This document shows, in pieces, positions 14,893-20,906 of a stretch of 32,054 nucleotides of DNA. Source of the DNA: Akkermansiaceae bacterium (lineage in GTDB: Bacteria > Verrucomicrobiota > Verrucomicrobiia > Verrucomicrobiales > Akkermansiaceae); contig JAQXBQ010000044.1 of NCBI GenBank assembly GCA_029252325.1, forward strand, positions 1-32,054, written 5' to 3'. The position numbers and the translations under genes were made by a program. The notes beneath the pieces were generated by a model that did not search any database, was not told the origin of the DNA, and saw only the letters and a program-made list of their open reading frames with translations. Every line of letters begins with the position of its first letter. Position 1 is the first letter of the stretch.

Positions 14893-17655
14893 ATGCAGCG
14901 CAAGTTCAGTTATTTTAAGCAAGCTCACTTTCAATCGAAAGCTAGGGTGCTTTGTTGTTTGTCATGGTTGGTGATTTCATCACTGCCTTATTCTCGTGAG
15001 GCTTCAGCAGAGGCTGTAAAACCACCACAAGACGTTCCGGCTCGTGATGTTGAGCCTGCCAGTCTAGTCGGACAATTGGTGTTGCAGTTGGGTGACGAAT
15101 CCTTTGAGTTGCGTGAATATGCTATGGCTGAGCTGTGGAAGCTGGGTCGAGTAGCGTTACCTACTCTGCGGCTTGCAGAAGCTGGTGATGACATTGAGGC
15201 TTCCGAGCGAGCAAGCGAGCTGATTCATTATATCTCAATAGGCTTGCTGTATGATTGCCCAGAGGAGGCAAAGGGATTAGTAATGAAGTTTTTTCAGCAC
15301 ACCTATGATGGCAAAGTCATCATTCTGCATAAGCTGATGAAGTTAGATCTTTGGAAGCAAGTGCTCAATCTTGGCTTCTTTGACAGCGATCCTAATATCA
15401 AGCGTTTCACTGTCAGCCTCACGTGGCCCCGATTACAGTCGACTCTGACTAGGGCGATTGCTGACAATGCTCATCAGCAAGTTGGCGAAATTATAAGTAT
15501 GCTGGGAGATAGCGATTTGCACATGCGCGTTAAAGCCCACTACTACATTCACGGTAATCAACTCGATAAAGAGCTGAGCAAAGCCGAGGGTCTTCTGGGA
15601 AAAGAAGCAGCAAGGTGGAGGATGTGGCTATATCGCTGTAGTGGTAATCTAGAGGCTTCGATCAGAGAGGCAGAGAATGCTAGTCAGAATGGGGTTGCGG
15701 ATTTATTGCGAGTGCTCGACGGTAATGCGTTACCATGGCTCGAGCGATCCGCTAGCGAGGGTGATGCGATCTATCGATGGGGCTGTAAGCTACAGCAATT
15801 GAGGCTTGATGGTAAAGATGCTGAGGCACAAGAGGAGAGTGAAAAATGGGAGGCTATCGAAGCGGCTGATGTGAAGCTGCCGGTGGTGTCTCGCTACCTT
15901 GCGGTTAATGGATTTCGGGAGCGGTCACTCAATGTGCTAAAAACTAGTGATGCTAATGCAGCTTTTGACTTTTATGATCTGGCTGAGATGCCAAAGCAGA
16001 GCTTGAAGTTGCTCGGTATCGTGGACAATGCCAAGCCTCCATATGTCGACTGGGTCGGTGAACGTATTGAGCAGATCAAGAAGGGAGACGCTGACGTTCG
16101 GAAAAAGCTGTCGAAGGAAGTAATGATGCTAAGCCATTTTCTTTACTCTAGGGGTGAGGGCGCGCATGGAAGTGATGTGATCACGCCCATGATGACCCTT
16201 TTTTCATCAGAAAATAAAGATTGGGATGAACATATAGAGGCAATGTTGTTAGGTGGCATGGAATCGATGGCAATTGATTTTATGAAGCAGAGGCTTGCCC
16301 AAGGTGATGTTGACCAAGATGAGCTCGCAAAAATGGCTGGGAAAATTCTCAAAGAGATGCAGCCATTAATGCGGGACTTCTTTTGGGATTATTTGAGTAA
16401 GCGTAAAGGCGATACTAACGGAGCATTACTCGACCAAGTTGGTTTGCTTGCAGGTCTGTTGCCTGATCCTGAGGATATAGCGGCTAAGATTCACGACGAG
16501 CTCTTGTTGGAAATCGGAGAGGAGGGCGCATTAGCTGATCGCAATCGGATCATGCTCATCGATGCCTTGTTTCATCTATGTATCATGCGCAACGACCTAG
16601 GTGCAGCCTCCAAGATGATAGATGGCTATGCGGATGTAAGTAATACCCTTAGGTCAGCTCAAGTTGATATACGATACAACCTGCTGCGCTGGGAGCAGGT
16701 TGAGCCTGCATTAGCGGCTCGAGCTAAGAATCAACCAGATGACCACAAAAACCTCATCAAGTGGCACATTACGCTGCAGAAATTAGGCCGAAATAGCAAA
16801 TCTCAAGAAGTATTTGATCGGGCTATGCGTCTATGCCTCGGCAATCCAGGTAATTTGAGCGACTATGGTGAGTATTTGTATGCTGCCGGATACGAGCGCA
16901 AAGCGACAGAGTTGTGGATGCGGGCGGCGATGATGTCTGATCTTGTATCTGCAGATCTGGACGACTTTGTTTGGTTAGTGACACTGCTGGCGAGTAATGG
17001 CCAACATTTTTATGCTTCAGGAGATTGGCAAAAGGCATGGTCAATTAGTGAGGTGTTTGCTCGTTTTATCATGCGCAGCAGCTCAGTGAGCACCCGTGTG
17101 GCTCTCAAGGCGCGCTATCAGGCTGAGTTTTGCCATGGGATGATGATGCTCAATCAAGGGAGCACGAAAGAAGGAATGAGGAGGCTGGAAGCTGCTCGAA
17201 AAATGATTCCAGCAGATGGAGCGCTTGCTGATGATTTTTTCCCAGCATTGCGTAACAAAATCCCCGCCAAGATTTATAACCGTTGGTTTGATGAGAGCTA
17301 TGCTCATATTTTAGAGGTCTGCAAAGATTATCCTCAATCTCATAATGCACATAATACAGCCGCTTGGTTGGCTTCAAGGGCAGTGAGGCATTTAGACGAG
17401 GCACATACTCATGCCCAAAAAGCGGTTGCGCTTCGCCCAAACCAAGGAGCTTACCTCGACACGATGGCTGAGGTTTGGTTTGCAAAAGGTAAGCGTGAAA
17501 AAGCGCTGGCGTGGTCGGAGAAAGCCATGGCTGCTAGTATCTCCAACGCTGCAGGAAGCCCCAGAGGGCTTCGCCTAGTATATGCGAACTACCAGCAGCT
17601 TAATAAGCAATACCAGCACTTTAAAAATGACCCTTTACCAATGAAGGCGCGTTGA
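14893..17655 (+). CDS. Large exported HEAT/TPR-repeat protein
   Basis: N-terminal hydrophobic segment, HEAT-like ESFELREYAMAELWKLGRVALPTLRLA, C-terminal TPRs (ALRPNQGAYLDTMAEVWFAKGKREKALAWSEKAM). Confidence 0.65.
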   Translation: MQRKFSYFKQAHFQSKARVLCCLSWLVISSLPYSREASAEAVKPPQDVPARDVEPASLVGQLVLQLGDESFELREYAMAELWKLGRVALPTLRLAEAGDDIEASERASELIHYISIGLLYDCPEEAKGLVMKFFQHTYDGKVIILHKLMKLDLWKQVLNLGFFDSDPNIKRFTVSLTWPRLQSTLTRAIADNAHQQVGEIISMLGDSDLHMRVKAHYYIHGNQLDKELSKAEGLLGKEAARWRMWLYRCSGNLEASIREAENASQNGVADLLRVLDGNALPWLERSASEGDAIYRWGCKLQQLRLDGKDAEAQEESEKWEAIEAADVKLPVVSRYLAVNGFRERSLNVLKTSDANAAFDFYDLAEMPKQSLKLLGIVDNAKPPYVDWVGERIEQIKKGDADVRKKLSKEVMMLSHFLYSRGEGAHGSDVITPMMTLFSSENKDWDEHIEAMLLGGMESMAIDFMKQRLAQGDVDQDELAKMAGKILKEMQPLMRDFFWDYLSKRKGDTNGALLDQVGLLAGLLPDPEDIAAKIHDELLLEIGEEGALADRNRIMLIDALFHLCIMRNDLGAASKMIDGYADVSNTLRSAQVDIRYNLLRWEQVEPALAARAKNQPDDHKNLIKWHITLQKLGRNSKSQEVFDRAMRLCLGNPGNLSDYGEYLYAAGYERKATELWMRAAMMSDLVSADLDDFVWLVTLLASNGQHFYASGDWQKAWSISEVFARFIMRSSSVSTRVALKARYQAEFCHGMMMLNQGSTKEGMRRLEAARKMIPADGALADDFFPALRNKIPAKIYNRWFDESYAHILEVCKDYPQSHNAHNTAAWLASRAVRHLDEAHTHAQKAVALRPNQGAYLDTMAEVWFAKGKREKALAWSEKAMAASISNAAGSPRGLRLVYANYQQLNKQYQHFKNDPLPMKAR

Positions 17656-17682: not shown

Positions 17683-18330
17683 ATGCATCGCCTTTTATTA
17701 TTTCTCTCATTGCTACCTCTGCTGGCGGCATTAGTTCTGCGAAAGTTTAATGCTGATCGCATCTTGAAGCTGGCCCGAGATCAGAAGCTCTCAGGCGATG
17801 GCGCGGCACTTGCTGAGCGAATGCTGTCATCGATGGGGAAGGGGGATGCCGAGCTCCGAATCAAAAAGCGAGAATGGGCTGGAGCTGCAGCCAGTGGTGA
17901 TAGTTGGTTGTCGCTGACGCCTCAACTCGCAAGTGGTAAAAGTGTCGCAGATCATGGGCAAGTGGCATTGCGAGTAGGTCTCTATTTCTTAGCCTTGAAA
18001 GATCCCAAATCCGTCGCTCGGCGTCGCTGGGCGCTGCGCTTTGGGCATGCCTTTCCCATTTTCACGCTAGTGGTATGCGTCTTTGCTTTGTTGGTAGGAA
18101 AGTTGCCCCCGGTGTGGGTGATCAGTATCGCGTTGGCTTCTTTGGGGATTGCAGCCTGTGCGCAGATATTAACTCTGACAACGAACTTACAAGCGTATGC
18201 GATGGCGGCTGTTGTGCTTGAGAAGAAACGTATTTACCCAAGGCTCAGCGATGAAGAGTCGGTATGTGCATCAATGCGCGGATGGGCATGGTATAGTATT
18301 GTGCCCGGTCTGATTTCTAGGTTGATGTAG
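17683..18330 (+). CDS. Integral membrane protein resembling YugP-type zinc metallopeptidases but lacking HExxH
   Basis: Colinear by eye with the YugP pattern: helix, LSGDGAALAERMLSS (cf. S.LTGAEVARRLLD), WLSLTPQLASGKSVADHGQVALRVGLYFLAL (cf. VRLSPGVYNS.SIAAVGVAAHEVGHAIQ), then paired TM helices and AQILTLTTNLQAYAMAAVVLEK. No HExxH present. Confidence 0.45.
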   Translation: MHRLLLFLSLLPLLAALVLRKFNADRILKLARDQKLSGDGAALAERMLSSMGKGDAELRIKKREWAGAAASGDSWLSLTPQLASGKSVADHGQVALRVGLYFLALKDPKSVARRRWALRFGHAFPIFTLVVCVFALLVGKLPPVWVISIALASLGIAACAQILTLTTNLQAYAMAAVVLEKKRIYPRLSDEESVCASMRGWAWYSIVPGLISRLM

Positions 18331-18481: not shown

Positions 18482-20101
18482 ATGAAATTTCTACTACACG
18501 CTATGCTTTCATATAATCGCGATCCACAACAGACCATCCCAGAGTCATCCGTTAAAATTATCGGACTCGGTGGGGCAGGAGCCAATATGCTTGATCGAGC
18601 CACTTTAGATGGTCTGACCGGCCCCGAGATGACCTGTGTGAACACTGATTTGCGCACATTATCAAGCTCGGTAGCAGCAGAGAAAATTCATTTAGGAAAG
18701 AATTTGACCAAGGGGCTTGGATCCGGTGGTGATCCTGAGTTAGGTGCTCGTGCAGCGCAGGAGTCTGAGTCTGAGTTGCGCGATGCCCTCCGCGGAAGAA
18801 AAATGGTTTTTTTGTGCGTCGGATTAGGTGGGGGTACGGGATCAGGGGCCGCCCCCTTGATCGCACGTATTGCTCGCGAGGAAGGCGCTTTTGTCGTTGT
18901 GTTTGGCACGATGCCTTTTGGCTTTGAGGGGCAGCGCCGCAGAGAACAGGCGGACACAGCACTCAACGAATTGTCTGTGTTGGCCAATGCGGTCGTGACC
19001 TTTGACAATGACCGTATGGGAGAGCTGGTATTGGCTAAGCAGGGCATCCATGAGGCTTTTGCCGCTTGCGATACGATGATTTCAGAATCTATCAAAGCCG
19101 TAACGCGCTTGGTAGTCAGGCCGGGTTTGATTAATATTGGACTTGCTGATTTGATGAGTGCTCTAAATACGACACGTTCGCGTTGTCTCTTCGGATCCGG
19201 TTCAGGCCAAGGCGAGAACCGGTCACAGCAGGCGATCGAAAACGCGCTCAACAGCCCATTGCTCGACAAGGGACACCTTCTCGCTGATGCCTCAAGCGTG
19301 CTCATTCATGTTTGTGGAGACGAAAGCCTGACCCTTTATGAAGTAGAGCTACTTATGCAGAGCCTTTCTAAGCATATACCTAAAGACTCACAGGTTTTAT
19401 TCGGAGTTGCTACTGATCCATCAATGGAGGGCGAGCTTAGTGTGACGCTGATCAGTGCCGTGCCTGAGGAGAAAATTCATTCTGGGGTTTCTCATGACGA
19501 TAATGATGACCAAGAAGATGAGTCATCTCTCGATGATCAAATATCTGCGTCCCTAGCGGCGGTTGAGTCGAGTCGTGTGATGGAAGCTCCCGAGGATGAG
19601 CAAATTATGGAGCCAAGTGAGGGTTTTTCACCAGAGGGTGATGCTGATGATGAGGATCCACAACGAGATCAAGGTGAACTCGATCAGAGTGATGAGACGT
19701 CGGAAGATAGTCAGGGTAGCTACGCAGAATTTATCAATATGGATGATGTGCAAGATCTTGCTGATGCTGTGCTCAAGGATGCAGAATTTGAAATAGATCA
19801 CGGATCAAATGAAGAAGCCGCTGATGAGGAAGAAGTCGCGGAACAACCGTTTGCTGAAATCGAGGGCCTTGAAAACGATGAACTTGAGAAAACCGAAGAG
19901 GGGGAGACCGAAAGTTCGCAAATAGCCATTGACCAAGAGCAGAGTCTTTTTGGCGATAACTCACTTAGTGACAAGCAAAATGCCCAGGGTGAGCTAGAGC
20001 TGGACGGTGGACCTAAGGGTAAATTTGAGGGCGAAAGCCCGAACGTGCTTGAGGGCGAAGATCTTGATATCCCGCCATTTTTGCGTAACAAGAAGAAGTA
20101 A
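18482..20101 (+). CDS. ftsZ: Cell division protein FtsZ (divergent, long acidic linker)
   Basis: GLGGAGANM, NTDLRTL, GLGGGTGSGAAPLIA tubulin signature, PFGFEGQRRREQA, T7-region PGLINIGLADL, C-terminal peptide DIPPFLRNKKK. An alternative start at 18503 is possible. Confidence 0.93.
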   Translation: MKFLLHAMLSYNRDPQQTIPESSVKIIGLGGAGANMLDRATLDGLTGPEMTCVNTDLRTLSSSVAAEKIHLGKNLTKGLGSGGDPELGARAAQESESELRDALRGRKMVFLCVGLGGGTGSGAAPLIARIAREEGAFVVVFGTMPFGFEGQRRREQADTALNELSVLANAVVTFDNDRMGELVLAKQGIHEAFAACDTMISESIKAVTRLVVRPGLINIGLADLMSALNTTRSRCLFGSGSGQGENRSQQAIENALNSPLLDKGHLLADASSVLIHVCGDESLTLYEVELLMQSLSKHIPKDSQVLFGVATDPSMEGELSVTLISAVPEEKIHSGVSHDDNDDQEDESSLDDQISASLAAVESSRVMEAPEDEQIMEPSEGFSPEGDADDEDPQRDQGELDQSDETSEDSQGSYAEFINMDDVQDLADAVLKDAEFEIDHGSNEEAADEEEVAEQPFAEIEGLENDELEKTEEGETESSQIAIDQEQSLFGDNSLSDKQNAQGELELDGGPKGKFEGESPNVLEGEDLDIPPFLRNKKK

Positions 20102-20180: not shown

Positions 20181-20906
20181 ATGTCAAATGTAGGAACTTT
20201 CATATTAGTCGCCGTGTGTCTTGGCATGGGGTATCTGATCGAGCCAGTCGTATTTGAGCTCCGTAACAAGGATAGAAATAAGAGTGCTGCAGTTGAGAAA
20301 ATGCCTGTAGTGAAGAAAGAGAAGCCCAAGCCCAAGCCCAAGCAAAGGCCCACTGTTAATATTGATTTAGGTTTAGTTAAGCCTGCAGACTACCCAGGCA
20401 GAGTATCGCTCTTTGAGCCCCTGGAAATTAATCATGAGGGTCTCACCCTTAGCCTCAAAGAGGGGGCTCAAATAATACCAGTTCGCCTTGAAGGTAGCGA
20501 CTTAGTTTTTAAAACTGAAGGCATCAGTGTTGAGCACTCTGTTGACGTTGATCAGACTGATTTCAAGCAATTAGTATTGCCTGTGATGAATGCTCGGATT
20601 CAGAGAGAGGCTGAAATGAAGCGCATTGAAGATGCTAAGCCTGTCGTGCTTGATGATTCCGCGATTGTTGCTTGTGTTCAGGCGAGTGTGGAAAGCGGAG
20701 CTGTGAATGAATTTAAGGCCGAGCAAGTCACAGAGTGGCTCGTGGGTGATGACATGGAGTTTGACGGCGCAACTTATCAGACTGGATTGGTGACCTTTAA
20801 GTCAGAGACAATATTGGGTGTTCAACAACAAAAAGCGATTGCACTGATCGAAGATGGAGAAGTCGTTAAATGGCTTTGGGCTAAGACTAGCCTCGAAATG
20901 CGCTAA
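20181..20906 (+). CDS. Hypothetical single-pass membrane protein with Lys/Pro linker
   Basis: N-terminal TM (GTFILVAVCLGMGYLIEP), basic KKEKPKPKPKQRP linker, soluble C-terminal domain; no family recognised. Confidence 0.6.
   Translation: MSNVGTFILVAVCLGMGYLIEPVVFELRNKDRNKSAAVEKMPVVKKEKPKPKPKQRPTVNIDLGLVKPADYPGRVSLFEPLEINHEGLTLSLKEGAQIIPVRLEGSDLVFKTEGISVEHSVDVDQTDFKQLVLPVMNARIQREAEMKRIEDAKPVVLDDSAIVACVQASVESGAVNEFKAEQVTEWLVGDDMEFDGATYQTGLVTFKSETILGVQQQKAIALIEDGEVVKWLWAKTSLEMR

Follow-up and report, generated by a model that had tools for sequence, protein, structure and literature searches.

The window (the whole stretch of 32,054 nucleotides of DNA that was analysed) encodes an FtsZ in which Gly stands at the first of the two catalytic acids of the T7, or synergy, loop and Arg replaces the Gln of the T2 loop. 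We conclude that this is an apparently new form of a well-known protein, namely the division FtsZ of a bacterium of Akkermansiaceae type (order Verrucomicrobiales). The reading that we favour, with slightly more confidence than doubt, is that it is the sole division FtsZ of the cell, that the rewiring of its active site dates back to an ancestor of the order and that its GTPase is probably slower and relies on D223, the T7 acid that is kept. In the catalytic model of FtsZ, both T7 Asp residues and the K+-locking Gln are regarded as conserved. Most of the Verrucomicrobiota lineages sampled here, including the family of Akkermansia, are without one of the acids, which implies that the active site of the textbooks does not apply to every FtsZ. 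The window FtsZ and its relatives offer natural variants on which the T7 catalytic model can be tested. With such variants, including that of a species whose ftsZ is reported to be essential, the parts that the two acids, the K+ site and filament turnover play in division can be told apart.

The ftsZ gene, its product and its surroundings

The gene occupies positions 18482-20101 of the + strand, on which the features of ftsZ given below also lie, and profile searches identified its 539-aa product (P0001) as FtsZ (PF00091, E=1.2e-38; PF12327, E=3.8e-18; TIGR00065, E=2.2e-83). The cut-offs of PF00091 and PF12327 were both exceeded, indicating that the Tubulin/FtsZ GTPase domain and the FtsZ C-terminal domain are present. 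The score against the NCBIfam equivalog TIGR00065 was 280.5 bits, below the cut-off of 295.2 bits. Since only 23 of 289 Verrucomicrobiota genomes passed this cut-off, which 13 control genomes did pass, we ascribe the low score to phylum-wide divergence rather than to membership of another family. The core was modelled with AlphaFold2 (mean pLDDT 86, with lower certainty near T7), and the predicted fold matched solved FtsZ structures (best E=4.5e-40). A long, acidic, low-complexity C-terminal linker (19487-20056) is followed by the C-terminal peptide EDLDIPPFLRNKKK (20057-20098), which we take to resemble the canonical FtsA-binding tail; by inspection, LDIPPFLR close to the C-terminus is the predicted FtsA-binding peptide. 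The genome (2.49 Mb, 96% complete, 285 contigs) contains one single match to the FtsZ/tubulin family and thus P0001 is its division FtsZ, not a specialised second copy.

As originally predicted, no genes of the dcw cluster adjoin ftsZ within the window, but ddl, ftsQ and ftsA lie together on another contig of the same genome (G000:C137). Whereas ftsA is directly upstream of ftsZ in most Akkermansiaceae loci, the window ftsZ is preceded by a gene for a 215-aa protein (17683-18330) that has no Pfam match. This gene is found upstream of ftsZ in all but one of the loci of the window's genus in which the upstream sequence suffices. The location of ftsZ outside the dcw cluster is seen in the genus both in the window (17683-18330 and 18482-20101) and in locus L255, and the relocation looks like a genus-level rearrangement. 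Because Gly is also present in relatives whose ftsZ is linked to ftsA, we consider the substitution and the relocation to be independent. Three Roseibacillus loci (L038, L040 and L043) also differ from most Akkermansiaceae in having no ftsA within 6 kb upstream of ftsZ. Proteins of 920 aa (14893-17655) and 241 aa (20181-20906), both without a Pfam match, flank the ftsZ region, and their position is conserved in a sister species (L004).

Residues of the active site and their distribution

The T7 loop, PGLINIGLADLMSAL (19121-19165), reads N-I-G-L-A-D at the catalytic positions and hence does not match the N-x-D-x-x-D pattern. Alignment confirmed the original prediction of an N-x-G-x-x-D loop altered at a catalytic position: G220 (codon GGA, 19139-19141) is equivalent to S. 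aureus D210 and E. coli D209, and the second Asp is kept as D223 (codon GAT, 19148-19150; S. aureus D213, E. coli D212). Between G220 and D223 lies A222 (19145-19147; S. aureus A212), a position that holds Ala in the window, Gly in the three sister species and Asp in most Verrucomicrobiales. In the window's clade, the Asp equivalent to D223 is thus the sole acidic residue left in the loop. A further change had escaped the original prediction: in the T2 loop, NTDLRTL, the Gln of S. aureus (Q48; E. coli Q47) is replaced by R58 (18653-18655). These two, at S. aureus 48 (Q to R) and 210 (D to G), are the key positions that have changed, while the Mg-site Asp D56, R153 (18938-18940; S. aureus R143, the catalytic Arg), N218, D223 and the T3 Gly G82 are retained. 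The T4 loop, GLGGGTGSG (18821-18847), had been described as intact. It does match the nucleotide-binding signature GGGTG[TS]G, but as GGGTGSG and not GGGTGTG, with a Ser in place of Thr that is conserved in the order Verrucomicrobiales and is also common to Opitutales-like families. A 2007 paper already noted this Ser in V. spinosum (PMC1845146).

Gly and Arg at S. aureus positions 210 and 48 (S. aureus numbering is used from here on for positions in the comparison) were found together in 49 of 49 Verrucomicrobiales genomes and in all 80 named relatives and loci, and position 213 was Asp or Glu in each of the 49 genomes. The Gly codon differs among relatives (GGA, GGG or GGC), which argues that Gly is maintained and is no sequencing error. 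Most members of the order carry an extra Asp two residues past the Gly, at position 212 (GLDD). The four-species clade of the window has lost Asp212 and has GLAD or GLGD instead, with Ala222 in one genome alone within the clade; Verrucomicrobium-like genera have Ala at 212, with Ser in one, and there too D213 is the only acid left in the loop. At many further core positions, other residues have become fixed in the order. From these alignments, the active site appears to have been rewired in the ancestor of Verrucomicrobiales. Within the same family, the FtsZ of genus g2 (L144-L148, L250) diverges strongly and forms a long branch. It combines Arg or Gln at 208 with GLDD, and a quick tree placed it apart from its own family.

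One member of the order may link these residues to cell division. Locus L254, from an 8.2 Mb single-contig genome (G321) of the same genus as G218, encodes an FtsZ of 673 aa from the first Met, with T7 loop PGIVRMGIADLLTAL, T2 loop MHTDVRVL and R48, R208, G210, A212 and D213. The published FtsZ of V. spinosum (VerFtsZ) is also 673 aa long (PMC1845146), and this equal length makes it likely that L254 encodes the V. spinosum protein. The ftsZ gene of V. spinosum, which multiplies by binary fission, has been called essential from transposon data (PMC12283558). If the identification is right, an FtsZ with Gly210, Arg48 and a single T7 acid would support division. The earlier description marks eight unusual FtsZ core residues in a figure, and its text is silent on T7, catalysis and GTPase (PMC1845146). 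We found no description of the T7 change in Verrucomicrobiota in the open-access literature, and the papers searched yielded no GTPase, polymer or K+ data for any Verrucomicrobiales FtsZ, nor GTPase data for the other Verrucomicrobiota compared here.

The original prediction had considered that the Gly might be common to all Verrucomicrobia. All Verrucomicrobiales sampled have it, whereas most other Verrucomicrobiota do not and have often lost the other Asp instead. A phylum-wide Gly was thus ruled out: the residue is a trait of the order and, outside it, of two small class-level families only (f6 and f14). We compared FtsZ from 168 Verrucomicrobiota genomes, a sample without some of the most divergent proteins of the phylum; conservation beyond the phylum was judged from E. 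coli, S. aureus, Aquifex and the literature. Both acids (D210 and Asp/Glu213) were kept in 38 of the 168 genomes, 213 was the sole acid in 66, 210 the sole acid in 63, and neither was present in one, so at least one T7 acid was retained in 167. The two-acid T7 pattern was lacking in 130 of the 168 and therefore does not define FtsZ membership in this phylum. All 24 genomes of family f5, which we infer from context to be Opitutales, retain D210 but not the acid at 213 (DFAT and similar). Loci L082-L100, which belong to this family, and other class-level loci have Thr, Ala, Gly, Ser or Gln for S. aureus D213 beside a kept D210, the reverse of the change in the window. The lone sampled FtsZ with neither acid (L164) has Thr at 210 and Ser at 213.

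Parsimony required a minimum of 8 changes at 210 and 11 at 213. Counts that ignore relatedness spoke against loss of both acids (p=3e-4 for families, p=8e-9 for genera). Tree simulation gave a mean of 8 double losses against 1 observed (P=0.11), and when conditioned on similar loss totals none of 126 simulations was as low, although the fitted rates yielded too few losses at 210; independent-pair tests on the tree had no power for the exclusion of double loss. This distribution is suggestive of a dependence in which loss of one T7 acid may make the other indispensable. The same tests had no power for a coupling of G210 with cationic residues at 48 or 208, since G210 has too few origins on the tree.

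Proposed mechanism and alternative explanations

In S. aureus filaments, D210 swings and places the catalytic water, D213 and G72 hold this water, R143 acts like an arginine finger in supplying positive charge, and K+ is held by N208 together with Q48 of the neighbouring subunit (PMC8936486). Mutants D210N and D213N of S. aureus do not assemble, and Q48A assembles with a GTPase about 6-fold lower (PMC8936486). E. coli D209A aggregates in yeast (PMC3684127); loss of this Asp alone is therefore damaging where it has been tested, in view also of the S. aureus D210N result, which speaks against the reading that we favour. For the window FtsZ we propose that subunits would still polymerise with GTP at the interface, that the attacking water would be positioned by D223 with R153 and G82, and that R58 of the neighbouring subunit may carry a permanent positive charge in place of the K+ that Gln holds in other FtsZs. 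Compared with E. coli FtsZ, hydrolysis would then proceed more slowly and depend less on K+. Slow hydrolysis, which the original prediction had put forward, would fit the mutant data on other FtsZs. The rewired active site is supported by the single FtsZ of the genome, the fixed G210 and R48, the synonymous variation of the Gly codon, the retention of the polymer-forming parts, the predicted fold, the residue roles known from S. aureus, the likely V. spinosum FtsZ and the retention of at least one of the two acids in 167 of the 168 genomes. A broader proposal, which we offer tentatively, is that the T7 acids have become separated in Verrucomicrobiota, with only D213 in Verrucomicrobiales or only D210 in Opitutales-like bacteria and at least one always needed, and that in Verrucomicrobiales the neighbouring Arg replaces K+, giving a K+-independent GTPase.

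It is possible, although in our judgement unlikely, that catalysis is fully compensated, the lost Asp having moved to position 212 and other changes restoring the GTPase, with the window's clade compensating elsewhere, so that the trait would be neutral. The many other core positions fixed differently in the order agree with this explanation, as does the residue at 212, which is acidic (Asp or Glu) in 32 of the 39 tree rows that have G210 and in 2 of the 85 that do not. However, the pairing of G210 with D212 seems to have arisen once, so that the coupling lacks independent replicates. Position 212 holds Ala or Gly both in the window's clade and in genera like Verrucomicrobium, among them the likely V. 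spinosum with its reportedly essential ftsZ, which indicates that Asp212 is dispensable. G220 is indeed a lineage trait by alignment, yet the Asp that it replaces has been reported to be catalytic and to be conserved across species, and neutrality does not follow.

Rather improbable, to our mind, is a division that runs on near-static filaments with GTP barely hydrolysed. Changes at T7 and T2 positions lower the activity of other FtsZs (PMC8936486), and E. coli D212G, with a roughly tenfold lower GTPase in a membrane-targeted chimera, forms static rings in vitro (PMC7320174). Nevertheless, E. coli D212G and Q47K need suppressors in order to complement (PMC5405962), and the invariable Asp/Glu213 of the order suggests selection for hydrolysis.

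The original prediction had also raised a second, specialised FtsZ, which would exist alongside a canonical one. This idea finds encouragement only in the place of the gene outside the dcw cluster, and we regard it as very improbable: the search for another ftsZ returned none among the contigs of this 96% complete genome, in which P0001 is the single family match, and in the tree the window gene groups with the ftsA-linked ftsZ of relatives. That the Gly is an artefact of sequencing, assembly or alignment can practically be dismissed, despite the fragmented assembly and an Ala222 seen in one genome of the clade, in view of its presence with different codons in every sampled member of the order.

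Comparison with known FtsZ proteins

The favoured reading, a rewired and probably slower active site in a sole division FtsZ, can be set against four known systems. S. aureus FtsZ (7OHK and related structures; PMC8936486) has the same fold, and the equivalents of its D46, R143, N208, D213 and G72 are kept in the window; the window protein differs in having Gly for D210 and Arg for Q48, both reported there as key and conserved. E. coli D212G (ftsZ2) and other T7 mutants share with the window the loss of one of the two T7 Asp residues. D212G is, however, an otherwise canonical protein, whereas in the window FtsZ the missing Asp is the other one (E. coli 209), and the rest of the protein has diverged naturally. 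V. spinosum VerFtsZ, described as divergent from all other bacterial FtsZ (PMC1845146), belongs to the same order, shares the T4 Ser and likely has the same G210, R48 and A212 (L254); unlike the window gene, its gene adjoins ftsA in the dcw cluster, and it has Arg at 208 where the window has Asn. Finally, Opitutales-like FtsZ (f5; L082-L100), from the same phylum and class, also carries one T7 acid only, and is the mirror image of the window protein, with D210 kept and Thr, Ala, Gly, Ser or Gln at 213.
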